Shown here piece by piece: positions 35,156 to 50,572 of a DNA stretch of 50,572 bases. The position numbers and the translations under genes are program-made. How positions within the stretch are numbered: the stretch's first letter is position 1; every line of letters starts with the position of its first letter. Below the pieces are notes generated by a model, which had not been told where the DNA came from, ran no database searches, and was given only the letters and a program-made list of their open reading frames with translations. Origin of the DNA: Arcticibacter eurypsychrophilus (GTDB taxonomy: Bacteria > Bacteroidota > Bacteroidia > Sphingobacteriales > Sphingobacteriaceae); the NCBI RefSeq assembly GCF_001730525.1, contig NZ_MDFN01000037.1, positions 1-50,572 of the forward strand. Direction: 5' to 3'.

Positions 35156-36112
35156 ATGAAAAGGAAATTATTAACTAGCGCACTTGTTTTTTTTGCTGTA
35201 ATAAATTTACAGGCACAAAATCCTATTATTAAACACATTTTTACTGCAGATCCATCACCAATTGTTTATAAAGACACCGTATTCTTATATACAGGGCATG
35301 ATACGGCATCTGTAACTGCTACTAATTACAAGATGCCGGACTGGCATGTATTTTCATCTACAGATATGGTTAACTGGAAAGATTATGGTGCTTTGCTTTC
35401 ACCTAGTACATTTTCATGGGCAACAGGTGATGCATATGCAGCACAATGTATATTTCGTAATGGTAAGTTTTATTGGTTTGTATCCACCTTCCATAAAAAC
35501 GACGAAAATAGCAAAGGTGGAGCCGCTATCGGTGTGGCTGTTTCCGACAGCCCTACTGGTCCATTTAAGGATGCCATTGGTAAGGCGCTTGTAATAAACG
35601 AGATGACAAAAGATAAACCTCATGCCTGGGACGATATTGATCCCACTGTGTTTGTAGATGATGATAATCAGGGCTACTTATTTTGGGGCAATGGGAGTTG
35701 CAAATGGGTAAAGCTGAAAGAAAATATGATTGAACTTGATGGTCCTATTACCGTATTAAATCCACTTCACTATATTGAAGGACCATGGGTCTACAAAAGG
35801 AAGGACCTTTATTATTTAGTATATGCAAGCGCTGGTACCAAACCTGAGATGATTGAATATTGTACTGCGACAAAACCTACCGGACCATGGACATATAGAG
35901 GAATTATTCAAGATAACGTACCAAATAGTTTTACTACACATCCTGGAATAGTTGATTATAAAGGGAAGTCCTATTTCTTTTACCACAACGGTGTTTTGCC
36001 TACCGGGGGGAGTTATAGACGCTCTATTTGTGTGGATTATATGTATTACAATGCAGATGGTACAATTAAAAAGATAGTTCAAACTACTAAGGGAGTGGCT
36101 GCTGTTAAATGA
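35156..36112 (+). CDS. GH43 hydrolase, single domain (subfamily 1-like)
   Basis: Compact exported GH43 of 318 aa, probably beta-xylosidase or arabinofuranosidase. Signal peptide 1-20 (INLQAQ). Triad: base D32 (TADPS), modulator D162 (DIDPTVF), acid E208 (YIEGPW). No C-terminal CBM, unlike the 4889-6247 paralogue. It ends at TGA 36110-36112, and translation of the same frame beyond this stop gives a second, homologous GH43 C-terminus (see remnant at 36113-36220). This suggests that the gene once had a tandem neighbour, since deleted. Last intact gene of the xylan region. Confidence 0.88.
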   Translation: MKRKLLTSALVFFAVINLQAQNPIIKHIFTADPSPIVYKDTVFLYTGHDTASVTATNYKMPDWHVFSSTDMVNWKDYGALLSPSTFSWATGDAYAAQCIFRNGKFYWFVSTFHKNDENSKGGAAIGVAVSDSPTGPFKDAIGKALVINEMTKDKPHAWDDIDPTVFVDDDNQGYLFWGNGSCKWVKLKENMIELDGPITVLNPLHYIEGPWVYKRKDLYYLVYASAGTKPEMIEYCTATKPTGPWTYRGIIQDNVPNSFTTHPGIVDYKGKSYFFYHNGVLPTGGSYRRSICVDYMYYNADGTIKKIVQTTKGVAAVK

Positions 36113-39055: not shown

Positions 39056-39096
39056 AATATAATCAGATAGAAGTACTTTATTACTTTTATTAAAGC

Positions 39097-39104
39097 TATA
39101 TTTG
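39097..39104 (+). promoter_or_regulatory. Bacteroidota -7 element TATATTTG
   Basis: Exact TAnnTTTG match 65 bp before the small membrane-protein gene at 39169. No clear -33 TTG at the usual distance, so moderate support only. Confidence 0.4.
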
Positions 39105-39168: not shown

Positions 39169-39579
39169 ATGATCATAGAAGAAAAAATCATACGACCCAT
39201 TAGTTTAAAAGTATCAGCAATTTTTATTGCTCATATCGGCTTACTTACATTATTTTTAACCACTTCCATATTGTTTGATTTGTTTGGAATCAGAGCTTAC
39301 GAAGGTAATTATATTGCGTTTGTGGTCTGGGCAAATTTCGCATGCGGCTTCATTTACCTTTTTGCTGCATATGGTTTTATTATGAAGAGAAAGTGGACTG
39401 CAGCCATTTTAGGTTTGTCTGCCTTAATCTTAATTGTGGCATTTATAGGATTATACCTGCATATTAATTCAGGTGGCAGGTATGAAACTAAAACAATAAG
39501 TGCAATGCTATTCAGGATTACAGTAACACTTGTTTTTGCAATCCTTGCCTATTTTACGATTACAAAAAAGAAAATATGA
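39169..39579 (+). CDS. Small four-helix membrane protein, unknown function
   Basis: 136-aa inner-membrane protein with about four hydrophobic helices (about 15-37, 46-68, 74-96, 108-130) and a basic tail ending TKKKI. I do not recognise a family and see no conserved His or Cys motif for haem or copper. Its stop overlaps the start of the next gene by 4 bp (ATGA at 39576-39579), so the two are translated together and probably act together. The next genes are a histidine-rich lipoprotein and the nitric oxide reductase, suggesting a role in NO or respiratory stress; this is guilt by association only. Confidence 0.75.
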   Translation: MIIEEKIIRPISLKVSAIFIAHIGLLTLFLTTSILFDLFGIRAYEGNYIAFVVWANFACGFIYLFAAYGFIMKRKWTAAILGLSALILIVAFIGLYLHINSGGRYETKTISAMLFRITVTLVFAILAYFTITKKKI

Positions 39580-40034
39580 AAATTCAACTGATACCAATTT
39601 TACTGATTGGTTTATTTTTAACTGGCTGCAGTTCTTCTTCAGACATAAAATCAAAGGGCCAAACACATGTGATAGAGGAAAACCATAATCATGGTGATAG
39701 TTCTCATTTAGTGGCACTAAAAAATGGCAATAAATGGATTGTCAACAAAGAAATGTTGTCACCCATAGATCATACCCATACGATTATTCATGATTTTGTC
39801 AACCAGGAGAAAAAGGATTATAAGCTGTTAGCAGCAAATCTACTCAGTGATGCTAATTTAATTATTTCAAGCTGTACGATGAAAGGCGAATCACATGATG
39901 AACTGCATAAATGGTTAATGCCCTATATGGCCGAGGTAAACGAACTTTCAAAGGCAGAAGACAATGCTGCAGCTGCACAGAAATTTGAAAACATTCAATC
40001 CGCATGGGACACCTTTAATCAGTATTTCCAATAA
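39576..40034 (+). CDS. Histidine-rich lipoprotein, unknown function
   Basis: 152-aa lipoprotein; lipobox LTGC with lipid cysteine C18, then a serine run. Residues about 32-43 carry a His cluster (HVIEENHNHGDSSH) that could bind metal or haem. The rest is helical and contains further His residues (DHTHTIIHDF, GESHDELHKW) spaced as in four-helix metal or haem binders, and one Cys (SSCTMKG). The last feature resembles small periplasmic heme- or metal-sensing helices, but no family is recognised. Translationally coupled to the upstream membrane protein and 216 bp before norZ. An accessory or metal-delivery role for the reductase is a guess. Confidence 0.75.
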   Translation: MKIQLIPILLIGLFLTGCSSSSDIKSKGQTHVIEENHNHGDSSHLVALKNGNKWIVNKEMLSPIDHTHTIIHDFVNQEKKDYKLLAANLLSDANLIISSCTMKGESHDELHKWLMPYMAEVNELSKAEDNAAAAQKFENIQSAWDTFNQYFQ

Positions 40035-40250: not shown

Positions 40251-42521
40251 ATGAAAACAGTCAATAAACTCTGGATCGCCTTCGGGTTAGTCGTTGGTTT
40301 ATCTTTCTCTGTATTGATTTATTACGGATTTGAGATTTATCAGAAAGCTCCACCAGTTCCTCTTAAAGTAGTGAACACGAGTGGGCAGGAGCTCTTCCTT
40401 GGCCAGGATATTAAGGATGGACAAAATGTATGGCAAAGCATGGGTGGACAAGAAGTTGGATCAATTTGGGGGCATGGTGCTTATGTTGCTCCGGACTGGA
40501 CGGCAGATTGGCTACATCGTGAAGCTCTTTTTATTTTAGACTATTGGGCCCAACAAGAGTACCAAACCTCATATAAAAAGCTTAGTGGAGAGTTGAAAGC
40601 GGGATTAGAAGTGCGTTTGCAAAAAGAATTACGCACCAACACCTATAATCCGGAAACAAAAATATTAACGATATCTCCCATCCGGGCAATGGCTTTTGAA
40701 CATCTTCGGCAGTACTACTCATCCCTATTTACCGATGATCCTGCATTCGATGAACTACGGGATAATTATGCTATATCGAAAAATGCAATAAAGGATGCCG
40801 GGAGATTAAGGCAAATGAATACTTTCTTTTTCTGGGCAAGCTGGGCTTGTGTAACCGTACGTCCGGGTGAGAACGTATCCTATACACATAACTGGCCACC
40901 TGATAAATTAATTGGAAACGTAGCCTCTGGGGATTTAGTGATATGGACAGGCTTTAGTGTCATCATCTTACTTTTGGGAATAGGGATACTAGCTATGTAT
41001 AACTCCAGGGCACATGAAGATGAACATGCAGAGGAAATTCCAGCCGCGGACCCTTTAATGAATAATTCTTCAACACCTTCTATGCGTGCTACGCTGAAAT
41101 ACTTTTGGATAGTAACGCTATTAATGCTGATCCAGGTGGTAGTGGGTGTTATTACAGCGCATTTTGGTGTTGAAGGTGGAAGCTTTTATGGCATCCCTCT
41201 TGATGAAGTCCTGCCTTATTCTTTAAGCCGGACCTGGCATGTCCAGTTAGGAATATTCTGGATTGCAACTTCATGGCTGGCCACCGGCTTGTATATTGCT
41301 CCGGCTGTATCTGAATATGAACCAAAATATCAAAAGCTCGGAGTAAATATCTTATTTGTTGCTTTATTAATTGTTGTTGCAGGATCGATGATCGGTCAGT
41401 GGTACGCAATTATGCAACGCCTTGGTCTGGTTGAAAACTTTTGGTTTGGTCATCAGGGTTATGAATACGTAGACCTTGGTAGATTCTGGCAGATATTACT
41501 TCTTGTTGGTCTGTTTTTATGGCTTTTGCTGATGGTACGGGCGTTACTACCTGCTCTAAGGAAAAAGGAAGGAAACCGGCATTTGCTTATCATGTTCCTT
41601 ATTGCTTCAGCTGCGATTGCTTTATTTTATTCAGCTGGATTAATGTGGGGCAGACAAACCAATCTTGCCATTGCCGAATACTGGAGATGGTGGGTAGTTC
41701 ACCTTTGGGTAGAAGGGTTTTTTGAAGTGTTTGCTACTGTTGTTGCTGCTTTCTTATTCGTACGGATGAAATTGCTAAATGAGAAATCGGCTACCCTCAA
41801 TGTAATTTTTGCAACCATCATTTTTCTTTCAGGTGGTATTCTTGGAACATTCCATCACTTATATTTTTCAGGAACACCTAAAATTATTATGGCACTAGGA
41901 GCAAGCTTCAGTGCACTGGAAGTAGTTCCTTTGGTATTAATTGGTTACGAAGCGTATCATAACTACCGGCTTAGCGGCAAAAAGGGATGGATTAGTGGTT
42001 ATAAATGGCCTATCTATTGTTTAATAGCGGTTACCTTTTGGAATTTCCTGGGCGCTGGTATATTTGGTTTTGTCATCAATCCTCCAATTGCTTTATACTA
42101 CATGCAAGGATTGAATACCACACCACTTCATAGTCACCTGGCCTTATTTGGTGTATATGGTGTGTTAGGAATTGGCCTAATGTTATTCGTGCTGAAAGGG
42201 ATCTACCGGAAAAACGTCTGGAAGAATGGATTAATCGGTTTTGCATTTTGGTCCATCAATATCGGATTGATGCTTATGGCGATTTTAAGTCTGCTCCCTA
42301 TGGGTATGCTTCAGGCAGTTGCCAGTGTGAATGAAGGAATGTGGTATGCCCGTTCTGCAGAGTTCATGCAGCAGCCCATGATGGAAACATTCCGATGGTT
42401 AAGAGCGATAGGCGACACCATATTTGCAATCGGTATGATTGCATTGGCTTTATTCGTAGCAGGATTAAAGTTTGGATGGAGTTACCATAAAGATGAATTT
42501 GATATTCCTTCTAAAAAATAA
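40251..42521 (+). CDS. norZ: Quinol-dependent nitric oxide reductase (qNor)
   Basis: Single-subunit NO reductase, 756 aa, reducing 2 NO to N2O with quinol electrons in the inner membrane. First helix about 7-28, then a periplasmic domain to about 225 (KDGQNVWQSMGGQEVGSIWG is the qNor signature), then about 13 helices. Metal ligands visible: H330 (SRTWHVQ) for low-spin haem; H484 in VVHLWVEG and H535/H536 in GTFHHL for FeB; E488 in the same helix, the catalytic glutamate of NORs; H627 and H629 (LHSHL) for the haems. No c-type haem motif, so it is not the cytochrome-dependent type. It stands alone, with a terminator directly after it and an Rrf2 gene converging. Confidence 0.96.
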   Translation: MKTVNKLWIAFGLVVGLSFSVLIYYGFEIYQKAPPVPLKVVNTSGQELFLGQDIKDGQNVWQSMGGQEVGSIWGHGAYVAPDWTADWLHREALFILDYWAQQEYQTSYKKLSGELKAGLEVRLQKELRTNTYNPETKILTISPIRAMAFEHLRQYYSSLFTDDPAFDELRDNYAISKNAIKDAGRLRQMNTFFFWASWACVTVRPGENVSYTHNWPPDKLIGNVASGDLVIWTGFSVIILLLGIGILAMYNSRAHEDEHAEEIPAADPLMNNSSTPSMRATLKYFWIVTLLMLIQVVVGVITAHFGVEGGSFYGIPLDEVLPYSLSRTWHVQLGIFWIATSWLATGLYIAPAVSEYEPKYQKLGVNILFVALLIVVAGSMIGQWYAIMQRLGLVENFWFGHQGYEYVDLGRFWQILLLVGLFLWLLLMVRALLPALRKKEGNRHLLIMFLIASAAIALFYSAGLMWGRQTNLAIAEYWRWWVVHLWVEGFFEVFATVVAAFLFVRMKLLNEKSATLNVIFATIIFLSGGILGTFHHLYFSGTPKIIMALGASFSALEVVPLVLIGYEAYHNYRLSGKKGWISGYKWPIYCLIAVTFWNFLGAGIFGFVINPPIALYYMQGLNTTPLHSHLALFGVYGVLGIGLMLFVLKGIYRKNVWKNGLIGFAFWSINIGLMLMAILSLLPMGMLQAVASVNEGMWYARSAEFMQQPMMETFRWLRAIGDTIFAIGMIALALFVAGLKFGWSYHKDEFDIPSKK

Positions 42522-42567
42522 AAATAAAGGGCTGTCTTGTTTTTAATAAGACAGCCCTTTATTTTTT
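42522..42567. terminator. Bidirectional terminator between norZ and Rrf2 gene
   Basis: Perfect 17-bp arms (42522-42538, 42548-42564) and a 9-nt loop, GC-rich core GGGCTGTCTT, T-tract on the right and A-tract on the left. It starts one base after the norZ stop codon and serves both convergent transcripts. Confidence 0.92.
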
Positions 42568-42613
42568 GACTAATTAAGCAATGGATTTATTCACTTTCGG
42601 GCCATTGCTTAAA

Positions 42614-43045
42614 TTATCCAATTAAATAAGTCAGCCCACTGCTAACTGGGCCACAAAGGTCCTTGATTTTTCTATTGTGGAATAAAGATTCAATTAAATC
42701 TCTTGCTACTTTATACTCGTCATGAATAGGGCAGGGGTGCAAAGCAGAGCACTTACTTAAACCCAAACCACATTCTTTAAATACATCTTTACCTTCTATC
42801 GTGTCAATAATGACACTGATGGATTGATCTTGTTGCTCAGTGGTTATAAAGAATCCACCTGTTGGCCCTTTTAAACTATTAATTATTCCATGCTTGGCTA
42901 AAGTCTGTAATATTTTACCCACAGTATGTTCACTGGCATTGATATGTTCAGCGGTTTCTTTTATTCCGGCTCTATCTCCAAGCGAACTTTTTGAGGCTAG
43001 ATAAATTACTGCTTTAATGGCTGTTTTACAGGTATAACTTAACAT
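42614..43045 (-). CDS. Rrf2-family iron-sulfur regulator (NsrR-like)
   Basis: 143-aa DNA-binding regulator. Winged helix at about 1-70 (ETAEHINASEHTVGKILQTL, GPTGGFF wing). Three cysteines C92, C99 and C105 in ECGLGLSKCSALHPC are spaced as in Rrf2 proteins that hold a [2Fe-2S] or [4Fe-4S] cluster (NsrR, IscR, RsrR). In NsrR the cluster is destroyed by NO, releasing repression. Convergent with norZ, so NO control of norZ is the leading hypothesis. It is preceded on its transcript by a 38-codon ORF overlapping its start, and by a promoter with a palindrome. A second very similar copy lies at 50119. It could alternatively sense oxygen or redox state. Confidence 0.88.
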   Translation of the reverse strand: MLSYTCKTAIKAVIYLASKSSLGDRAGIKETAEHINASEHTVGKILQTLAKHGIINSLKGPTGGFFITTEQQDQSISVIIDTIEGKDVFKECGLGLSKCSALHPCPIHDEYKVARDLIESLFHNRKIKDLCGPVSSGLTYLIG

Positions 43046-43155
43046 GCTTCAGAATCTGAATTTCCTAAGGTAAAAATTGAAAAACCAGGAATAGCATAAG
43101 GTATTCGTATGTCTTGTTCCTTAGGTCGGTTAACTGTTAATAACTTATTTGACAT
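43039..43155 (-). CDS. 38-codon leader ORF upstream of Rrf2 gene
   Basis: Begins ATG at 43155 (MSNKLLTVNRPKEQDIR), continues IPYAIPGFSIFTLGNSDSE and ends AC-stop. The stop TAA at 43041-43039 overlaps the Rrf2 ATG (43045), the ATGTTAA arrangement expected for translational coupling. A -7 element TATCTTTG (43188-43181) lies 25 bp before its ATG, so it would be the first translated unit of the mRNA, and a purine-rich stretch (AAAAAAAAGA) precedes it. No homology recognised. It could be a leader peptide that controls Rrf2 translation, or a real small protein. Confidence is limited because 38 codons can occur by chance. Confidence 0.5.
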   Translation of the reverse strand: MSNKLLTVNRPKEQDIRIPYAIPGFSIFTLGNSDSEAC

Positions 43156-43180
43156 GGTCTTTTTTTTACTGAATTATAAT

Positions 43181-43188
43181 CAAAGATA
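43181..43188 (-). promoter_or_regulatory. -7 element TATCTTTG of the leader-ORF/Rrf2 transcript
   Basis: Exact TAnnTTTG match on the minus strand. Predicted transcription start near 43174, about 20 nt before the leader ATG. No TTG at -33, which is compatible with a regulated promoter. Confidence 0.6.
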
Positions 43189-43207
43189 AGAGTATTCGAA
43201 TACTTTT
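43188..43207. promoter_or_regulatory. Operator-like palindrome AGTATTCGAATACT
   Basis: Perfect 14-bp palindrome at 43191-43204, extendable to 20 bp with one G:T pair (AAG...TTT). It lies immediately upstream of the -7 element of the Rrf2 promoter, in the spacer where a bound dimer would block polymerase. Most likely the Rrf2 autoregulation site. A weaker TATTCGTAT copy is at 43102-43110, inside the leader ORF. Confidence 0.6.
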
Positions 43208-43688
43208 ATGCTTGGTGAATGTAAAATGTGCTATTTTTCGTTCCGAAAACACATGCAGCATTTTAGTACTTGGCAGCATCAAGGTAAGAAAAGAACAAGA
43301 AAGGGTATTTGAAAATTATTGGAGAGGTTCTTTTTTATCAAAATTGAAACACACAATGGAATGAATGTTAACTGGATACATAAAATCCTTTTAACGGATT
43401 TGGGTACACTTAAATGGTCAGCACACCTCCTCAATTTGTAACTAAGAAACATTAATGAAAAAGATTATTAACCCATTTAGCATGTTCTACTTTAAAAAGA
43501 CACAGGTAATTTAAATATCCTACAACTTTAATAGATTATTAATATGTTTGTACACATATTTAAATATCTCCGGTAACTTTAAAATACCTGCGTTTTAAAA
43601 CAATGCTCTTTAATATAGTACTCATCTATTTTTTGTTTTAGCTTATTAATAAGCGCCAGAGGTTTCTCCATTGTATAAATAATTCTTC
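43208..43688. other. Intergenic region before the PLP enzyme
   Basis: This 481-bp AT-rich stretch contains a -7-like TATGTTTG (43543-43550) and a perfect 14-bp palindrome GCTTATTAATAAGC (43641-43654) in the probable leader of the PLP enzyme. No ORF of note and no recognisable SAM-II-type riboswitch. Confidence 0.4.
43641..43654. promoter_or_regulatory. Perfect palindrome GCTTATTAATAAGC in PLP-enzyme leader
   Basis: 14-bp self-complementary sequence 34 bp before the ATG. Could be an operator or a small hairpin occluding translation; no factor known. Confidence 0.35.
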
Positions 43689-50118: not shown

Positions 50119-50572
50119 ATGATCTCAAAAGCATGTAAATACGGAATTAGGGCTACAGTTTTTGTGGCTTCTAAGGCTGAAACGGGTATTAAACTAAATG
50201 TAAAAGAAATAGCTAAAGAAGTGGATGCCCCTGAAGCATTTACCGCTAAAATTTTACAGGTTTTAAATAAGCACAGAATAATTACTTCGATGAAAGGACC
50301 ATACGGAGGATTTTTTATTGAAGACTTTCAACTTGAGCAACCAGTAATAAACGTGATAAATGCGATAGATGGAATTTCTATATTTAAAGAATGTGGAATG
50401 GGCTTGAAACAGTGTTCTGAAAAACATCCTTGTCCATTACATTGCCGCTATGCGGAAATAAGAGAAACGCTATTAGAAACATTTCAGAACACTACTATTG
50501 GACAACTTGGATTAGAAGTGAATGGCGGAGCAACGTTTATTAATAATCACTGCTGTCCGATAAAAATTAAAC
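50119..50572 (+). CDS. Second Rrf2-family iron-sulfur regulator, cut by window end
   Basis: Starts MISKACKYGIRATVFV and runs open to the end of the window (151 codons read). Same layout as the regulator at 42614-43045: winged helix with IAKEVDAPEAFTAKILQVL, wing GPYGGFF, and cysteines C92, C99 and C105 in ECGMGLKQCSEKHPC, with identical spacing; HPCP also shared. Its C-terminal part differs and has an extra CC pair (C145, C146). It follows the cbb3 operon by 74 bp on the same strand and may be its last gene. It probably senses redox state or NO for the oxidase, while the first copy serves norZ; that split is inferred. Confidence 0.88.
   Translation, partial: MISKACKYGIRATVFVASKAETGIKLNVKEIAKEVDAPEAFTAKILQVLNKHRIITSMKGPYGGFFIEDFQLEQPVINVINAIDGISIFKECGMGLKQCSEKHPCPLHCRYAEIRETLLETFQNTTIGQLGLEVNGGATFINNHCCPIKIK

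Follow-up and report, generated by a model that had tools for sequence, protein, structure and literature searches.

The window, a 50,572-nucleotide stretch of Arcticibacter eurypsychrophilus DNA analysed at its full length, contains an Rrf2-type regulator gene that converges with the gene for a nitric oxide reductase. An earlier note on this DNA had described the short region preceding rrf2 as a self-contained unit, in which a perfect palindrome abuts a −7 element and a coupled 38-codon open reading frame (ORF) acts as a leader peptide that adjusts Rrf2 synthesis or encodes a small partner of the regulator. This arrangement raises the question of which element, the palindrome or the ORF, carries the regulation. 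The reading that we consider probable is that the Rrf2 protein encoded downstream uses the palindrome as its operator and would be a nitric oxide-type regulator of itself, of norB and of Fe–S repair operons of the ric/scdA type, and that the ORF is at most a leader that delivers ribosomes.

A 24-bp inverted repeat at the rrf2 promoter has the palindrome at its core

The rrf2 gene (42614–43045, minus strand) encodes a protein of 143 amino acids that matches PF02082 with 72.4 bits, against a cut-off of 30. The palindrome reported upstream of it, AGTATTCGAATACT, is indeed present at 43191–43204, and this copy is the only exact one in the 4,686,437-base assembly. The window contains five gapless perfect 14-bp palindromes, compared with a mean of 4.95 in 20 shuffles, so symmetry by itself is no evidence of function. 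Nor does the genome contain an excess of near matches to the 14-mer on its own: 21 were counted, and 22 with the reversed control.

The palindrome forms the inner part of a 24-bp inverted repeat at 43186–43209, ATAAAAGTA-N6-TACTTTTAT, which is recognized by a motif shared with relatives (17 of 18 specified bases) and by matches in its own genome. With at most one mismatch, this 24-bp sequence has four matches in the A. eurypsychrophilus genome, well above the 0.0565 expected by chance; with up to three mismatches, there was no excess (23 matches versus 26 for the control).

Read along the minus strand, the elements follow one another as ATAAAAGTATTCGAATACTCTTAT (43209–43186), the −7 element TATCTTTG (43188–43181), the ORF ATG at 43155, 38 codons and a TAA at 43041–43039, with the rrf2 ATG at 43045. 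The first three bases of the −7 element lie within the 24-bp repeat, hereafter the operator. The palindrome proper and the −7 element are 2 nt apart, so the abutment described earlier is nearly, but not exactly, correct. Transcription of rrf2 would start near 43174, placing the ORF ATG about 19 nt downstream, in agreement with the distance of about 20 nt given in the earlier note.

The operator recurs upstream of rrf2 in relatives

To define the motif, exact inverted repeats were sought in the intergenic DNA of 83 loci, comprising 80 orthologue loci and three more; the 80 loci carry relatives of the window Rrf2, drawn from 147 confirmed relatives, and counts over 81 refer to these 80 and the window. 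AAAGTA-N6-TACTTT was the standout repeat, found at 27 of the 83 loci, with the runner-up motif at 5, and in the orthologue loci it extends to the full operator. Conservation upstream of Rrf2 orthologues, which the earlier note had raised for the palindrome, was found for the 24-bp repeat: a site matching at least 16 of the 18 specified bases lies upstream of rrf2 in 38 of the 81 loci, the window counted. At least one of the 38 sites (L121) resembles coding sequence, as judged by eye. The remaining 43 loci have no such site upstream of rrf2; many loci extend over no more than 4 kb, which is about the length of the operon.

The sites also have a consistent orientation relative to a promoter element. 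TAnnTTTG occurs within 45 nt of the operator on the gene side at 25 of the 38 sites and on the opposite side at none, against a background rate of 5% in 2,094 intergenic 52-mers. The window site is not among the 25, its −7 element beginning inside the operator. The window is also the only one of the 81 loci in which the operator lies less than 400 nt from rrf2.

rrf2 stands alone in A. eurypsychrophilus

The usual surroundings of rrf2 are best seen at locus L052, in which the order is operator, ric-type gene, cupin, DUF1858/DUF2249 protein, a membrane protein with weak likeness to COX1, a PF01883 Fe–S assembly protein and rrf2; this is the only locus in which the gene preceding rrf2 was named by profile. 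In 65 of the 80 relatives, rrf2 is preceded by an ORF of 80 codons or more that ends 0–6 nt short of it (107 codons long in 40 of these 65); in nine more the distance is 7–24 nt, which leaves six relatives, and the window, with none in range. In most relatives examined, rrf2 would be part of a ric operon, 0–6 nt behind another gene (that of the Fe–S assembly protein in L052). In A. eurypsychrophilus, it stands alone behind its own operator, with the 38-codon ORF occupying the new leader.

The closest PF01883 relatives in the A. eurypsychrophilus genome are encoded on other contigs and share 43% and 31% identity with the L052 protein. Descent of the 38-codon ORF from a PF01883 gene was considered and rejected, as no similarity was found among the tblastn matches listed for the loci or by eye. 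Possible remnants of the end of a PF01883 gene were seen by eye at L083 and L112.

The 38-codon ORF is specific to one species and may be translated

The ATG-initiated ORF (43155–43039, minus strand) exists as described, its TAA overlapping the rrf2 ATG by 7 nt and its last codon specifying Cys. The earlier note had built on both the overlap and the terminal Cys; they are present, but they are forced by the start of rrf2, which encodes a conserved Met-Leu-Ser. This start is invariant in the Rrf2 proteins of the clade (16 of 16), and an ATG followed by TTA, TTG, CTA or CTG and then A yields Cys-stop in the next frame; a stop is found there in 60 of the 81 loci. Three relatives, L066, L082 and L108, have ORFs of 31–32 codons that share this +7 end; in each of them a longer gene, too, terminates at rrf2.

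The ORF is not conserved. A search of 301 family genomes at an E value of 0.001 recovered it in its own genome only, and 400 order genomes searched at E 0.1 gave, besides its own, three weak matches of 15–17 bits that we regard as chance. When the ORF was compared with the loci by tblastn, the orthologue loci scored E 0.29 or worse among the matches listed, in which values of 0.004–0.024 were reached only at the three loci of the weak order-genome matches. The orthologue locus from the same genus (L004/L053) has no such ORF.

A substantial possibility is that the operator functions as proposed above and that the leader is untranslated, the ORF in it having stayed open by chance and rrf2 using its own start. 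The lack of conservation and the forced stop and Cys are consistent with this reading, as are comparisons in which 636 genes, predicted in 850 kb of the same genome, served as the reference for coding and start scores. The codon usage of the ORF is uninformative, at the 22nd percentile of genes and the 81st percentile of 1,770 spurious ORFs that overlap genes. Moreover, a stand-alone ORF of 30–99 codons ends at the gene start in 12 of the 636 genes, a number that includes rrf2, and some of the 12 ORFs may be real small genes; the layout is thus uncommon, though not unique. By contrast, an ATG-initiated ORF that had 38 codons or more and ended between −10 and +25 of rrf2 arose in only 1.1% of 20,000 shuffled leaders; the first ATG was open through to rrf2 in 15%. 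The start context of the ORF also argues against a chance frame: among 631 gene starts it falls at the 61st percentile, and it is better than that of 96% of 30,622 other ATGs, whereas the rrf2 start context is poor, at the 6th percentile of gene starts.

The gene-like start of the ORF, the poor start of rrf2 and the longer upstream gene in 65 of the 80 relatives suggest that the ORF may be translated as a coupling leader specific to this species. Its sole plausible role would be the delivery of ribosomes to the weak rrf2 start. In a fuller version, which we put forward tentatively and consider rather unlikely, rrf2 left the ric operon and the gene to which it was coupled, and a new, non-conserved 38-codon cistron restored translation from a start that works well only by coupling; the position of the cistron would then matter and its sequence would not. 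Counter to coupling, the rrf2 start at L053 is weak too (−3.64), and no such ORF is found there.

Elsewhere in the window, a stand-alone 40-codon ORF precedes the gene starting near 35156 (plus strand), its stop overlapping that start by 4 nt.

The operator is tied to one group of Rrf2 orthologues

Close orthologues of the window Rrf2, defined by an E value below 1e-45, were present in 18 of 399 family genomes, A. eurypsychrophilus counted; those outside its genome are 54–75% identical to the window protein. The same 399 genomes were searched with a strict form of the motif, TAAAAGTA-N6-TACTTTTA, which was found in 17. Of these, 12 are among the 18 genomes that have a close orthologue, and 5 are among the 381 that lack one (Fisher p = 4e-15). 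A reversed control pattern matched 13 of the 399 genomes but none of the 18, and the five positives without an orthologue are about as many as this control predicts. Among the six orthologue genomes without the strict motif, five have a site of 16–17 of 18 bases upstream of rrf2 (L060, L062, L090, L100 and L123), and the sixth provides only a 3.2-kb contig for its rrf2. In all 11 of the 11 positive genomes other than that of the window, the strict site lies 2.6–5 kb from rrf2, on its 5′ side and on the same contig. The operator is thus tied to this Rrf2 orthologue group.

This association makes it quite unlikely that the operator belongs to a different Rrf2 protein that would control the 42614–43045 gene. 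A candidate for such a protein is encoded within the window (50119–50541), 43% identical to the first, and the genome has a third match at an E value below 1e-20. Nevertheless, the motif follows the orthologues of the 42614–43045 gene, in the proportions given above, and the strict motif is absent from three genomes (G077, G103 and G123) that have relatives like the 50119–50541 gene (45–48% identical to the query, starting with MISKAC) and no close orthologue. The 50119–50541 gene itself, at the window end on the plus strand, matches PF02082 and begins with MISKAC, resembling the genes of these three genomes.

The predicted regulon comprises rrf2, the norB operon and ric-like genes

The four own-genome operators with at most one mismatch lie before two ric-like gene starts, the norB operon and rrf2. 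The copy upstream of the norB operon (39067–39090) matches 17 of the 18 bases and is followed by a −7 element, TATATTTG, at 39097–39104 on the plus strand. Between this operator and norB are two ORFs on the same strand, one of 136 amino acids (39169–39579) with no Pfam match and one of 152 amino acids (39576–40034) with none above the cut-off. norB (40251–42521, plus strand; PF22085 and PF00115) encodes a quinol-type nitric oxide reductase of 756 amino acids. The connection that the earlier note had drawn between the palindrome, the −7 element, the cysteine-bearing Rrf2 and nitric oxide reductase is stronger than was claimed, since the norB operon, too, is preceded by this operator. norB was sought in 17 of the 18 orthologue genomes (G023 left out) and three other members of the genus, and was found in 9 of these 20; none of five other norB genes (74–84% identical), one of them partly masked, has a norB-side site of at least 15 of 18 bases.

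The other two operators are exact; contigs C4 and C10 each carry one, roughly 200 bases from the contig end, before a gene beginning METLETNYINVPLIEPKLKHPTIFKVFDSL (frame assigned by eye). This gene is similar to the one that opens the L052 operon and encodes a DUF2249/ScdA_N/Hemerythrin protein; the contigs stop before the rest. The two contig ends (L146 and L147) carry near-identical ric-like gene starts, each with its exact operator, which suggests that they represent a repeated ric operon that the assembly failed to resolve.

Distant norB genes at L189, L190 and L191 are preceded by a palindrome of the type ATTAAAGATAAATTTATCTTTAAT, which is unlike the operator, and a similar palindrome precedes the Rrf2 gene at L031, which belongs to another clade; this type is possibly the operator of the L031-type Rrf2 clade. 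Between the convergent norB and rrf2 genes, at 42520–42570, AAAGGGCTGTCTT...AAGACAGCCCTTT forms an inverted repeat that is bordered by runs of A and of T and looks by eye like a two-way terminator; the terminator scan gave no entry for it.

Proposed model

What the sequence analysis shows is the operator with its conservation, its association with one orthologue group, its four own-genome copies and its overlap with the −7 element, together with the absence of the ORF elsewhere. These observations are consistent with a model in which, without nitric oxide, an Fe–S-containing dimer of Rrf2 would bind ATAAAAGTA-N6-TACTTTTAT over the −7 box and repress rrf2 itself as well as the norB and ric/scdA-type operons. 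Nitric oxide would damage the Fe–S cluster and thereby release repression. Four residues of the protein, C92, C99, C105 and H108, are invariant in 16 of 16 aligned orthologues, and we infer that the three cysteines bind the cluster. Binding of the protein to DNA, sensing of nitric oxide, action as a repressor rather than an activator and translation of the ORF are likewise predictions of the model.

An RNA attenuator in the rrf2 leader was rejected: the leader RNA folds with no more structure than shuffles (z = −0.40), and no terminator-like site was found within it. That the ORF encodes a functional peptide, as a condition-sensing regulatory leader or a small Rrf2 partner, is highly improbable, for although the frame is open, lies directly behind the promoter and has a gene-like start context, relatives retain rrf2 and the operator without the reading frame, the peptide has no match in Pfam, NCBIfam or PHROGs and no more than the weak matches listed above, its terminal Cys is accounted for by the frame, and the leader RNA shows no excess of structure. 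The self-contained unit proposed in the earlier note is not supported in this respect, the loss of the frame in relatives being an outcome that the note itself had named as refuting it.

Comparison with known systems

The operator is of an ordinary kind and well supported, and its sequence is, as far as we know, new for this clade. In a search of part of the literature, no account was found for Bacteroidota of this operator, of another nitric oxide-linked Rrf2 operator or of a small ORF leading into rrf2, which is weak evidence of absence. For an Rrf2 clade of Sphingobacteriaceae, Chitinophagaceae and other Bacteroidota, our results provide an operator that can be tested, together with a small regulon. 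They also indicate that the start codons of a gene can dictate both the stop/start overlap and the final residue of a small ORF upstream.

The ORF resembles cbrX of Pseudomonas putida, which, in the available part of its description (PMC6591292), is a small ORF before and near the start of a regulatory gene, cbrA. cbrX is translationally coupled, whereas the ORF described here was found in one species only and its coupling is putative.

Among solved structures, five match the Rrf2 profile, the best being 6y45 and 6hsd (Rrf2 family regulators), followed by 3lwf, 2y75 (CymR) and 4cic; none of these is a structure of NsrR, whose cluster in Streptomyces has Asp8 as a fourth ligand. The protein narrowly misses the NCBIfam rrf2_super family (66.4 versus 73.3) and, at 27.1 bits, falls far below the cut-off of 182 for the NCBIfam NsrR equivalog, NF008240. 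The NsrR operator consensus given in the part of PMC1274295 that was available, gATGyAT-N5-ATrCATc, is not matched by the half-site AAAGTA and 6-base spacer found here, and the phylum and the operon also differ. We do not class the window Rrf2 as NsrR. It is apparently NsrR-like in its targets, its conserved cysteines and its self-control, a likeness drawn from sequence only. As far as the accessible portions of PMC1274295 and PMC9338935 describe them, NsrR regulons likewise have an Rrf2-family protein with three conserved cysteines that controls its own gene through a palindromic operator covering the promoter, and their targets include norB and repair genes of the dnrN/ytfE type.
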